From Candidatus Thorarchaeota archaeon (GTDB lineage: Archaea > Asgardarchaeota > Thorarchaeia > Thorarchaeales > Thorarchaeaceae): a DNA stretch of 64,000 nt. Shown piece by piece: positions 2,550-60,250 of this stretch. The translations under genes and the position numbers were made by a program. Position 1 is the stretch's first letter. Each line of letters starts with the position of its first letter. The stretch is taken from positions 62,001 to 126,000 of the forward strand of contig JAEORX010000001.1 in assembly GCA_016840685.1 (NCBI GenBank), given 5' to 3'. The notes below the pieces were generated by a model. The model was given only the letters and a program-made list of their open reading frames with translations. It had not been told where the DNA came from and searched no databases.

Positions 2550-3283
2550 TCATCTGACTTCTTGTGTTCATTCACAAGCTCATTGATTCTCCGCACCAAT
2601 CCTGTGAGTGTGGCCACTTCTCTCCCAGTCATGTACGCCCTCCCCAACAGATTTCTGAAGACCTGTTTTGCAATGGGAACTTTGTGCTCCTTTAAACTCA
2701 GTTGGTCCACAACCTCATCAAAGAACTTGTACACCTGCTCTCGTTCCTTGAATGTCGCGGCTCTGGCTTCATAGGGTTGACGAGGCTCATTCTTAGCGTA
2801 TCTAGTGAAGAGATGATAGAGCACTATGGACACTGCGTGACTCAGGTTGAGACTTGGGTAGTCCTTGGAGGCAGGAATCGTGAATGCTAGGTCACACAAT
2901 GCTAGCTCTTCATTGAACAAACCCGTGCTCTCCCTCCCAAACACCAGCGCGATTCGACCATCAAGAGAATTTGGATCAGGTAATTCAAACAGCGGAACCA
3001 AGGCTCTCGTGACGCTATGGTTTCTTCCTCCCCTCGCAGTCGCAGCCCATGCCAGGTCAATGTCATCTAGAGCAGAACCAAGGTCTTCAAAGACTCCTGC
3101 GTTGTCTAGAATGTCTTGAGCGTGGACTGAGAACATCTGCGCAAACTGGTCTTGTCTATGGTCCTCTCCCACTAGTCTTAATTCGCGTACTCCAAAGTTT
3201 GCCATGGCTCTTGTCACAAAACCAACGTTACCTGGGTTCTCTGGACCCACGAGAACGACGGTCAGGGTCGGAAAATTTGTCAA
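2546..3283 (-). CDS. SpoU/TrmJ-like RNA methyltransferase
   Basis: VVLVGPENPGNVGFVTRAMANFG and ALVFGRESTGLFNEEL SPOUT motifs. Confidence 0.88.
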   Translation of the reverse strand: MTNFPTLTVVLVGPENPGNVGFVTRAMANFGVRELRLVGEDHRQDQFAQMFSVHAQDILDNAGVFEDLGSALDDIDLAWAATARGGRNHSVTRALVPLFELPDPNSLDGRIALVFGRESTGLFNEELALCDLAFTIPASKDYPSLNLSHAVSIVLYHLFTRYAKNEPRQPYEARAATFKEREQVYKFFDEVVDQLSLKEHKVPIAKQVFRNLLGRAYMTGREVATLTGLVRRINELVNEHKKSDD

Positions 3284-49439: not shown

Positions 49440-50729
49440 ATGGGTCTGAAATACTACCTTGAAACGTATGGCTGTTCACTGAACACGGCAGACTCTGATA
49501 TCATAGTGGCACGTCTTAAAGCCATTAAAGGACAACGCGTCGAAGACATCAACGAGGCAGAACTAATTCTACTGAACACATGTGGTGTGAAGGAACCAAC
49601 TGAGGACAAGATTATCCATAGACTAGAAGAACTCTCCCGGGAAAAGACCCCTGTCATCGTCACTGGGTGTCTTCCAAAGATCTCCCTCGAACGAGTAGAG
49701 GACGCCATGCCGGATTTTGCTGCGTTACTTGGTCCCCAATCCATAGAAACACTTGCACTTATCATCCCACGGATACTTGAAGGCGAAAGAGGCATTCGGC
49801 ACGTCGAATCCGATAATGCCTACAAACTGAAGTGGTTTGCAGGTCCACCTGATAGTGTAATCTGTACAGTTCCCATCTGTGAGGGTTGTCTTGGTAGTTG
49901 CGCTTATTGCGCAGTGAAGTTTGCTCGTGGTAAGGTAAGAAGCTATTCAATAAAGGACCTCCATCAGAAGATAGAGCGATGCGTTTCTCTCGGATATCGC
50001 GAAATTCGACTGACTTCTCAAGATGCAGCTGTCTATGGGAGCGACACTGGCGAAACGCTTCCTGATCTATTGCAGTCAATTGGAGGAATTGAGGGCCCTC
50101 ATAAATTCCGATTGGGAATGTTCAATCCAAACATAGTGATGAGTTCAATCAGTGGCTTGATTGATGTAATGGATAATGAACACTTCTTCAAGTTCTTTCA
50201 TGTCCCTCTTCAATCAGGAAGTGACAGACTCCTTGGGACAATGAAACGACGCTATATTGTGAGTGAATGGGAAAGCGTTGTCGAGAGAGTCAGACATCGT
50301 TTTAAGAATGCGACCATTGCCACCGACATCATTGTTGGATTTCCTGGTGAAACTGAGTCCGACTTCGAGGAAACTCTAGAGGTGATTAGGAGAATAAAAC
50401 CCTCTGTCACCAACATCTCCAAGTATGGTGACCGACCGAACACTCTAGCATCAAAATCAAAGGAAAAGGTAGAAACTTCAGTCAAGAAGGAACGAAGTCG
50501 AGTCCTGACTAAACTTGTTGATGATATTCTTCTTGAGTCGAATGAAGCATGGATTGGGTGGTCTGGTCCTGTCATAATCACTGAAAGAGGTGTCAAAGGC
50601 GGGATGCTTGGACGCAACGAGTCATACAAGGTCGTGATAGTTCAAAAAGACCTGAGTCTTGGAACCATCGTGGATGTTGAGATTGTATCATCTGATCGAA
50701 CACATCTAAACGGTCAAGTCATTTCTTAG
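49440..50729 (+). CDS. MiaB-family tRNA methylthiotransferase (archaeal e-MtaB/CDKAL1-like)
   Basis: YYLETYGCSLNTADSDI; CEGCLGSCAYCAVKFARG; VGFPGETESDFEETL; start approximate. Confidence 0.92.
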   Translation: MGLKYYLETYGCSLNTADSDIIVARLKAIKGQRVEDINEAELILLNTCGVKEPTEDKIIHRLEELSREKTPVIVTGCLPKISLERVEDAMPDFAALLGPQSIETLALIIPRILEGERGIRHVESDNAYKLKWFAGPPDSVICTVPICEGCLGSCAYCAVKFARGKVRSYSIKDLHQKIERCVSLGYREIRLTSQDAAVYGSDTGETLPDLLQSIGGIEGPHKFRLGMFNPNIVMSSISGLIDVMDNEHFFKFFHVPLQSGSDRLLGTMKRRYIVSEWESVVERVRHRFKNATIATDIIVGFPGETESDFEETLEVIRRIKPSVTNISKYGDRPNTLASKSKEKVETSVKKERSRVLTKLVDDILLESNEAWIGWSGPVIITERGVKGGMLGRNESYKVVIVQKDLSLGTIVDVEIVSSDRTHLNGQVIS

Positions 50730-51723
50730 ACTTGATTTCGATATCAAGTACTTGACCTGATTCTGCACTCTGTCTTGAGGTTTCAACTATCTCCATGACA
50801 CAAAGCGCATCATCAATGCTCACTCTTGGAGTACTACCTGTCTTGATGCACCGCAAGAAGTCGTTAAGCACCTCTCGAGCTGGTTCGCCATAGACCTTTA
50901 TTGTAGCACCTCTTTCTGGGAGTTGGATTGTGTCGCCCTTTGCCACTGGAGCCTGATCCAGGTGCTGCACCTTGATTATCTGACCAAACAGGTCCAGCAC
51001 CAAGGACCCTTTAGTCCCTGACACGTCCATGTATCTACGGCGACCTGCATACTGCCTGGAGAGATGAAAGAGGTGTTCTGTTCCAGATTCAAACTTCACC
51101 ATCACAGTTGCGCTATTGTGGATTCCACTAGCGGTGTTACTCTGGGCATAGAGCTTTGCAGGACCACTACTTATTCTTGCCATGATGTCAAAGTCATGGA
51201 CCCCTATGTCCTCAAAGACATCTCCCAATGAAGGAATCCTCTCAGGCGCCACAAACCCCCTCCGGTCATGTATAACAGTTTGAGGGATCCCAATGGCATC
51301 AGTTTCAATGAGGGAAAGAGCTCTAGTCACAATAGGATTGTAAATCTCTGAGTGTGAAACTAGGGTGACAATCCCTCTTTCCTCCAATATTTTCGAAACC
51401 TCTCTGGCATCTTTTAGGGTACTTGACAAAGGCTTTTCGATGAGAATCCCTCTGATCTCATCATAATTGGTGGCAATGGTTTTAGCAATAGTTGCATGTG
51501 TTGATGTGGGTGTTGCAATGACAACACCTTCGGGTTTTGTTTCATCAAGCATGCTCGCGAAGTCTGTAAATGCAAGAGTGTCATAGTCCTTAGCAGTTTG
51601 TTCGGCGGCAGCTTTGTTAGTGTCAGCCACACCTACAAGAACTCCCATGTCACTAAGAATACGTGCATGAATACGACCCATGACTCCTGTTCCAATGATG
51701 ACTATCCTTCGAGATGACGTCAT
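50719..51723 (-). CDS. Gfo/Idh/MocA family oxidoreductase
   Basis: VIIGTGVMGRIHARILSDMGVLVGVADTNKAAAEQTAKDY; GILIEKPLSSTLKDA. Confidence 0.92.
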   Translation of the reverse strand: MTSSRRIVIIGTGVMGRIHARILSDMGVLVGVADTNKAAAEQTAKDYDTLAFTDFASMLDETKPEGVVIATPTSTHATIAKTIATNYDEIRGILIEKPLSSTLKDAREVSKILEERGIVTLVSHSEIYNPIVTRALSLIETDAIGIPQTVIHDRRGFVAPERIPSLGDVFEDIGVHDFDIMARISSGPAKLYAQSNTASGIHNSATVMVKFESGTEHLFHLSRQYAGRRRYMDVSGTKGSLVLDLFGQIIKVQHLDQAPVAKGDTIQLPERGATIKVYGEPAREVLNDFLRCIKTGSTPRVSIDDALCVMEIVETSRQSAESGQVLDIEIKSKK

Positions 51724-51794
51724 AAACCACTCCTATCGGACTCAGAATGCCCGCATTCATCTTGACCTTTATACATTGCCATAGTTTTCAGCCT

Positions 51795-52065
51795 GTATCA
51801 AGAGTGCATGAATTTTGCACCTTCGGGTTGGAAAAGCGGCGATTCTTGTCATGACAGTCTTATATTGGCTCGGGCAAATTGATGTATGAATCCAAGACTC
51901 ACACACTCCTTCAGGGACTCGCTATAAAGACAATGCACGTCTTGGATCACTATGCCGCCCCGAGTCCCATTATGCTTCAGAAGACAACTCCCTCCCTCGG
52001 ACCCACCCGTTCAAGGACTGCGATACGCCTCGTCGCACTCTGGGTGGGTCCTTTTACAAGCCCTC
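51795..52065 (+). ncRNA. candidate structured non-coding RNA, family unknown
   Basis: TTTATA box at about 51766; helices ATCCAAGAC(51890-51898)/GTCTTGGAT(51939-51947), GGCTCGGG/CCCGAGTC (51867-51874/51959-51966), GGACCCACCC(51999-52008)/GGGTGGGTCC(52042-52051) capped by TGCGA/TCGCA. Confidence 0.5.
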
Positions 52066-52156
52066 TTTTAGATTTCTAATGACGGAACTCAGAGAGTTAG
52101 ATTGGACATAACGAGACGAAGTTAATTGGCGTATTGCAATATTAAAATGGGACATT

Positions 52157-52825
52157 ATGTATCCTGTTCCAAGTGTGAGCAGAATGAATAAGAACCGAAA
52201 AACCATGGTCGTATTTGATACCTATGGCCCATACCTTGTAGTTGGAATGCCAAAATGCACCAATTCCAAGGGAATGAAAATTGAACTGGGACCTGTTTCA
52301 GCCCTTTGTCGTTGTGGTGGGTCTGGAGACAAACCCTTTTGCGATGGAACACACTCAAAGATAGGATTTGCGGGAACAAAGGATCCAGACCGCCGTGAGG
52401 ACAAAGTCATTGAGTTCAAGGGCAAAGAGATTACGATTTTTGACAATCGAGGGGTGTGCTCAGCGGATGGAGCCTGCATCAGGGAGAGTCCAGAGGTCTT
52501 TCAGAAGGACAAGAAGCCTATGTGGATATTCCCCGATGAGGGAGAAGTGAGGATGACAGTCGAAACAATCGAGAAGTGTCCATCTGGCGCACTCAGCTAC
52601 GCAATTGGCACCCAACGAATCCAAGACCTTGACCGTGAACCCTCTATCAAAGTTGCAAAGAATGGTCCACTGGAGTTTGTTGGATGGATAGAACTCGTTG
52701 ATGACCAAGAAAACAAACCCGAGTCCAAGGAACACTATACACTCTGTCGCTGTGGAGCATCTAAAAACAAGCCATTCTGCGACAACAGCCATAAGAAGAT
52801 CGACTTTAATGATGACAAGAATTAA
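52157..52825 (+). CDS. double-CDGSH iron-sulfur protein with central 4Fe-4S-like (Fer4_19-type) domain
   Basis: CRCGGSGDKPFCDGTHSKIGF; CSADGACIRESPEVF...CPSGAL; CRCGASKNKPFCDNSHKKIDF. Confidence 0.9.
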   Translation: MYPVPSVSRMNKNRKTMVVFDTYGPYLVVGMPKCTNSKGMKIELGPVSALCRCGGSGDKPFCDGTHSKIGFAGTKDPDRREDKVIEFKGKEITIFDNRGVCSADGACIRESPEVFQKDKKPMWIFPDEGEVRMTVETIEKCPSGALSYAIGTQRIQDLDREPSIKVAKNGPLEFVGWIELVDDQENKPESKEHYTLCRCGASKNKPFCDNSHKKIDFNDDKN

Positions 52826-56750: not shown

Positions 56751-56868
56751 TGGTGCGGAGGGCGAGATTTGAACTCGCGAATCGTGTTTGGGTTGGCAAG
56801 CAACCCATAAATCACTACTGAACCAGGCCCTCAACCTGGCGCCTTTGACCTGGCTTGGCAACCTCCGC
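56751..56868 (-). tRNA. tRNA-Leu (GAG) with 30-nt intron (about 56780-56809) at the variable-arm/T-stem junction; CCA encoded
   Basis: GCGGAGG...CCAGG-TTGAGGG-CCTGG-TTCAGTAGTGATT-[30 nt]-C-GCGAG-TTCAAAT-CTCGC-CCTCCGC-A-CCA; 118 nt minus 30 = 88 nt. Confidence 0.88.
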
Positions 56869-57202: not shown

Positions 57203-57310
57203 TGGAGCCCCGGGCGGGATTCGAATTCGCGCCTCATGGCGCTGATGACCATGAAGTCCCGCGATCAACTGCTTACGAAGCAGTCGCTATAACCCCTAAG
57301 CCACCGAGGC
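57203..57310 (-). tRNA. tRNA-Thr (CGT) with 32-nt intron (57226-57257) between T-stem and T-loop; CCA encoded
   Basis: GCCTCGG...ACTGC-TTCGTAA-GCAGT-TGATC-GCGGG-[32 nt]-TTCGAAT-CCCGC-CCGGGGC-T-CCA; 108 nt minus 32 = 76 nt. Confidence 0.88.
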
Positions 57311-60141: not shown

Positions 60142-60250
60142 TGGCGGGCCCGGTGCGATTTGAACGCACGATTTCCAACTTAGAAGGCTGGCGCCCTATG
60201 AACCTCACAGCACACGGATTGTGTACAGCACCGGGCTAGGCAACGGGCCC
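60142..60250 (-). tRNA. tRNA-Arg (TCT) with 31-nt intron (about 60200-60230) in the D-loop; CCA encoded
   Basis: GGGCCCG-TT-GCCTAGCCCGG-[31 nt]-ATAGGGC-G-CCAGC-CTTCTAA-GTTGG-AAATC-GTGCG-TTCAAAT-CGCAC-CGGGCCC-G-CCA; 109 nt minus 31 = 78 nt. Confidence 0.87.

Follow-up and report, generated by a model that had tools for sequence, protein, structure and literature searches.

At positions 51724-52156 of the 64,000-nucleotide stretch of Thorarchaeota DNA that was analyzed (hereafter, the window), an intergenic region separates a MocA oxidoreductase gene from a CDGSH/Fer4_19 gene, and a first-pass annotation had proposed that this gap contains a structured non-coding RNA of an unknown family. The locus raises the question of whether an RNA gene resides here and, if so, what its product might do.

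Structure and limits of the candidate RNA gene

Each of the elements named in that proposal, comprising inverted repeats of 9, 8 and 10 bp, a TATA-like box and an ACC-TTCG-GGT mini-hairpin, could be located in the gap. The 8-bp stem had been described as enclosing the 9-bp stem, which is incorrect: the arms of these two helices interleave in the order A-B-A'-B' and are therefore those of an H-type pseudoknot, an arrangement missed in the initial reading. On the plus strand, the first helix (P1) joins ATCCAAGAC at 51890-51898 to GTCTTGGAT at 51939-51947 through 9 bp and the second (P2), interleaved with it, joins GGGACTCG at 51914-51921 to CGAGTCCC at 51961-51968 through 8 bp. Further 3' lies a terminal hairpin (51999-52051) whose 10-bp lower stem is formed by GGACCCACCC (51999-52008) and GGGTGGGTCC (52042-52051), with an upper stem, TGCGA/TCGCA, and its loop at 52019-52037. 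The putative promoter of this unit is the TATA box CTTATATT (51859-51866), which would have an archaeal TATA function. Placing the start approximately 25 nt 3' of the TATA box and the end at the T-run that follows the hairpin (52052-52055) predicts a plus-strand transcript of about 170 nt (51886-52056), shorter than the 200-270 nt initially suggested, and this block is conserved throughout the genus (16/16 genomes). The T-run may act as a terminator, as 15 of 33 sequences have TTTT no more than 40 nt from the hairpin, compared to a background of 12%. The mini-hairpin (51819-51828) is indeed present but lies upstream of the TATA box, outside the predicted transcript, and is unconserved in relatives.

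We assessed these helices against shuffled sequences and by comparison between relatives. No dinucleotide shuffle out of 300 equalled the RNA in having three Watson-Crick helices with a length of 8 bp or above, the longest helix of 10 bp was reached by 6 of 1000, and crossing helices of 8 and 9 bp arose in none of 600. The terminal hairpin folds with a z-score of -4.64 (0/200 shuffles), and across eight genera its lower stem is paired in 100% of cells, with five of the ten pairs changed on both sides, a covariation score that no shuffle out of 500 attained and slid controls that reached at most 62.5% pairing. Compensatory U-A to C-G and G-C to A-U exchanges distinguish subgroups in the upper stem. 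The covariation called for in the first-pass annotation is thus borne out for the terminal hairpin but not for P1 and P2, which are paired in 94% and 95% of cells, respectively (94.9% combined), with zero compensatory changes among the eight window-type sequences. Because no compensatory pair exists within the genus, the argument for the pseudoknot is drawn from the chance tests and from a locus in genus g3 (L063), where crossing helices of 10 and 10 bp adopt a matching layout in unrelated sequence (1/600 shuffles). Within the genus, groups B and C lack the window-type pseudoknot, as does genus g7, which leads us to conclude that the 5' domain turns over rapidly.

Searches for known classes support the original assignment to an undescribed family. 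No Rfam 15 family matches the RNA at its gathering threshold or at E≤5, in agreement with the earlier remark that neither an RNase P nor an SRP RNA signature could be recognized; the genome has its own RNase P RNA match elsewhere, on contig C164 (159.9 bits, RNaseP_arch), and its best Archaea_SRP match is on contig C28 (76.6 bits, below the cut-off). A C/D guide RNA, with an RUGAUGA C box and a CUGA D box, was likewise rejected, as none of 35 family RNAs contains a C box. A small protein encoded by the overlapping ORF at 51879-52079 had been named as the reading that a conserved frame would favor; in relatives, however, this frame is disrupted by internal stops or frameshifts (L004, L005, L006 and L007), the predicted C-termini differ through indels, and the product has no Pfam match. 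A minus-strand reading of the RNA was also rejected, as we did not see a conserved promoter on that side. We conclude that 51886-52056 (+) very probably represents a gene, present in single copy, for an undescribed structured small RNA predicted to expose a C/U-rich single strand.

Distribution and genomic neighborhood

The genomes that we compared are nearly all metagenome-assembled genomes (MAGs). BLASTN recovered the conserved block in relatives, and covariance model R1, which was built from A2 and covers the 3' domain, detected the RNA in 16 of 16 genomes of the genus and 3 of 3 of genus g7, in a single copy except in the MAG G006, which contains two and is contaminated to about 7%. These two divergent copies (G006:C127 and G006:C209, corresponding to L016 and L004) probably derive from two strains in one bin. 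A cross-genus model (R2, built from A6) matched 26 of 231 Asgard genomes, every one of them in the same Thorarchaeota family, and gave no match in genera g5, g6, g8, g9, g10, g26 and g27. When covariance model matches and synteny are considered together, the RNA is found in about ten of the family's 13 genera. Upstream of MocA, a common arrangement of CTTATAT or CTTAAAT followed by a long stem and C-rich single strands recurs in g2, g3, g4, g6, g7, g8, g10, g25 and g26; for g6, g8, g10 and g26, homology is assigned from synteny, promoter and long stem only. This TATA motif lies 5' of the RNA in every genus in which the RNA was seen, whereas the upstream spacer has diverged. Taken singly, the helices of L062 (g3), L068, L071 and L073 were not significant against shuffles.

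The adjoining Gfo/Idh/MocA oxidoreductase gene (50719-51723 in the window, minus strand; Pfam PF01408) is the divergent neighbor of the RNA at each of the 16 named loci, and in several genera the gene order is MocA, RNA, tRNA-Leu(GAG). In genera g5, g9 and g27, MocA is retained and a tRNA gene occupies the place of the RNA, which has apparently been lost or relocated in these three genera. The loci in which we observed no RNA between MocA and the tRNA gene are L059, L076 and L079 (g5), L061 and L067 (g9), and L072 and L075 (g27). Outside of the family, 14 genomes yielded only distant MocA paralogues and no close orthologue.

The gene on the 3' side is not linked to the RNA in this manner. Of 16 related loci, just 3 have a full-length counterpart of the window's CDGSH and Fer4_19 gene (52157-52825, plus strand; PF09360 and PF06902) downstream, and the downstream gene is otherwise variable. 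Because MocA is constant and CDGSH occurs in few loci, the RNA is no leader of the gene that follows it, and a riboswitch or other cis-acting leader was rejected on the ground that these 16 loci share no constant class of downstream gene. In one locus (L047, about 3074-3217), CDGSH is reduced to its last ~48 residues and begins directly at the 3' end of the RNA, as if a deletion had joined the RNA to the tail of the gene.

The C/U tract and a putative second RNA gene

The feature of the RNA that we propose to be functional is the C/U tract at 51988-51998 (CUCCCUCCCUC), which is near-invariant in the genus. The conserved form of this tract, CUCCCUCCC, contains a CCUCC core that resembles an anti-Shine-Dalgarno sequence and is found, as (A)CAACUCCCUCCCUC, directly 5' of the terminal hairpin. 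A second motif, GCCUC, resides inside the hairpin loop (52027-52031), is invariant or nearly so in the genus, and recurs as GCCUC(CC) in loops of other genera. The predicted probability of being unpaired is 0.89 for the tract and 0.95 for the loop motif. In 16 representatives, taken as one per species or genus, we counted 25 CCUCCC/GCCUCC motifs where dinucleotide shuffles predict 6.5; significance was not reached in every genus and the exact motif is absent from 4 of the 16. The motifs are predicted to be unpaired at 0.71 compared to 0.47 elsewhere, with the higher value at the motifs in 15 of 16 representatives. C exceeds G in all 16, and since a C-rich strand that is short of G remains unpaired by default, we treat exposure as weak evidence.

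One recurring locus, and no conserved mRNA site, emerged when the exact complement of the tract was sought in seven group-A genomes. This locus (L182 / L196, at G000:C141 about 1468-1579, with relatives L192-L205 and L207) at first sight resembles a target, as GAGGGAGGGAG precedes an ATG. We rejected such a 5' UTR reading because the supposed ORF comprises 10-16 codons of changing sequence and because the conserved TATA box is on the other strand. Read from that strand, the locus encodes a putative second RNA (RNA2), in which CTTATAT is followed after about 25 nt by an RNA of 60-110 nt containing the stem GGGGGUCC/GGACCCCC and the loop UGUCACUCCCUCCCUCUCUC. Covariance model R3 places RNA2 in 15 of 16 genomes of the genus, the weakest matches (E 0.002-0.03) having the same promoter and sequence, and Rfam has no match at the locus. 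Its stem covaries, with four pairs changed on both sides (score reached in 0/500 shuffles), although the alignment was fitted to the model and is thereby biased towards the structure.

In group A, the window RNA (RNA1) and RNA2 share the 12-mer ACUCCCUCCCUC exactly, and in RNA2 this 12-mer is part of the C/U-rich loop. Both RNAs also carry CCUCC-type C/U-rich tracts in groups B and C, where their flanks do not track each other, and a covariance model recognizes no homology between the two. As the search that revealed RNA2 started from the motif's complement, and as 11-mers of this sort occur ~3-4 times per genome, the shared motif may be part coincidence.

Candidate modes of action

Because the RNA appears to have its own promoter, a constant location, a variable downstream gene and an exposed motif shared with RNA2, we propose that it acts in trans via the C/U tract. 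The reading that we favor, tentatively and at somewhat below an even chance, is that this RNA is an independently transcribed, family-specific RNA of Thorarchaeota whose C/U tract is its working part, most likely bound by a protein for which it serves as a decoy or scaffold. The 5' pseudoknot, in the window's subgroup, and the rigid 3' terminal hairpin would frame and expose the C/U strand and the GCCUC loop; an RNA-binding protein would recognize the tract, and the RNA would function in trans in the manner of the CsrB/RsmZ sponges. RNA2, which carries the same tract, would have this protein as its partner too. RNAs of the CsrB/RsmZ type present a short single-stranded motif repeatedly on stems, are encoded by more than one gene per genome and change quickly in structure. 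The repeated C/U motifs, fast structural turnover and presence of more than one gene described above fit this class, with the difference that the motif here is C/U-rich whereas theirs is GGA.

A close rival to protein recognition, though in our estimation a somewhat less likely one, is that the RNA is a base-pairing sRNA whose tract anneals to purine-rich GGGAGG near start codons and thereby blocks or alters translation. In keeping with this, CCUCC is common to CUCCCUCCC and the 16S 3' end of the same genome (GGAUCACCUCCU), and in a sample of 236 genes, about a tenth of the genome, Shine-Dalgarno-like motifs of at least 5 nt precede 44 genes compared to 19 of 236 in the control, a minority use. 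Bacterial precedents also exist. The 6C RNA of Actinobacteria is a small, stable, lineage-wide core ncRNA with C-rich loops on stems (PMC9569102), and these loops are reported there, by way of that paper's reference 64, to bind mRNA. It resembles the window RNA in presenting C-rich single strands on stems, and differs in that the window RNA belongs to another domain of life, lacks an Rfam match, combines a pseudoknot with one terminal hairpin and carries its main tract outside of a loop; its pairing with mRNA is hypothetical. Likewise, sX13 of Xanthomonas exposes C-rich motifs for G-rich targets near translation starts, and RNAIII and HPnc5490 are related C-rich-loop sRNAs (PMC3771888). The conserved exposed C-rich tract that typifies this group is found in the window RNA, which has no sequence or structural homology to its members and whose complementary sites are not enriched at starts. 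Indeed, strong duplexes with the tract (≤ -14 kcal/mol) number 12 at starts and 11 inside genes, and the mean duplex energy across the 236 genes is -7.4 at starts compared to -7.8 inside genes. In G000, moreover, the extended complement GGGAGGGAGTT leads back to the RNA and to no other site, and across the seven genomes GAGGGAGGGAG is found opposite RNA2 and at no conserved mRNA site. Since starts show no excess of strong tract duplexes over gene interiors, we lean towards recognition by a protein.

Local regulation of the divergent MocA gene, in which the two genes would share a bidirectional promoter region and the RNA or its transcription would tune MocA, accounts for the retention of MocA synteny in every locus seen. 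We nonetheless consider it improbable, as the RNA and the MocA transcript do not overlap, promoter interference needs neither a covarying hairpin nor a conserved C/U tract, and genera g5, g9 and g27 keep MocA without the RNA at this site. A DNA-level element is more doubtful still: a canonical four-run G-quadruplex motif (GGGTGGGTCCGAGGGAGGG) on the strand opposite the tract and stem (51990-52008, minus strand) could control transcription, and about half of 35 family sequences, the window included, contain such a motif, but the other half lack it while keeping the hairpin pairing, and the compensatory changes in the stem are accounted for by RNA pairing. Finally, a diverged H/ACA guide RNA, at which the first-pass annotation had hinted, is scarcely credible, since the superficial likeness to archaeal H/ACA RNAs (a hairpin with a 10-bp stem, an internal loop and an ACA about 14 nt past it) is confined to the window's subgroup, whereas the ACA (or ANA), which should be conserved 14-16 nt 3' of the pocket, is missing from groups B and C and most genera, a two-sided pseudouridylation pocket is lacking in sister species (group B), which have 0-1 nt on its 3' side and can form an alternative 14-bp stem, the GCCUC loop is constant unlike a guide, Rfam is negative, and inspection of the aligned hairpins revealed no K-turn, as had been noted at the outset.

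We regard as possible, though on the speculative side, that Thorarchaeota have a small-RNA system of their own, in which at least two structurally unrelated genes would have converged on or share the CUCCCUCCC tract and serve one partner, and in which the structure of the window RNA would evolve quickly between genera, with only stem, tract and location persisting. The open-access literature that we searched describes no Thorarchaeota small RNA of such a kind. Asgard archaea are the closest prokaryotic relatives of eukaryotes and their trans-acting RNAs are almost uncharted; two candidate RNA genes, for which promoters, ends, structures and a common motif can be specified, offer transcripts to look for in metatranscriptomes and baits with which to seek RNA-binding proteins.

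Elsewhere in the window, tRNA matches at 56754-56868 and 57206-57310 are 105-115 nt long and could hold introns, and a third tRNA match, which is short (61 nt) and borderline (30.1 bits), is located at 60145-60205.
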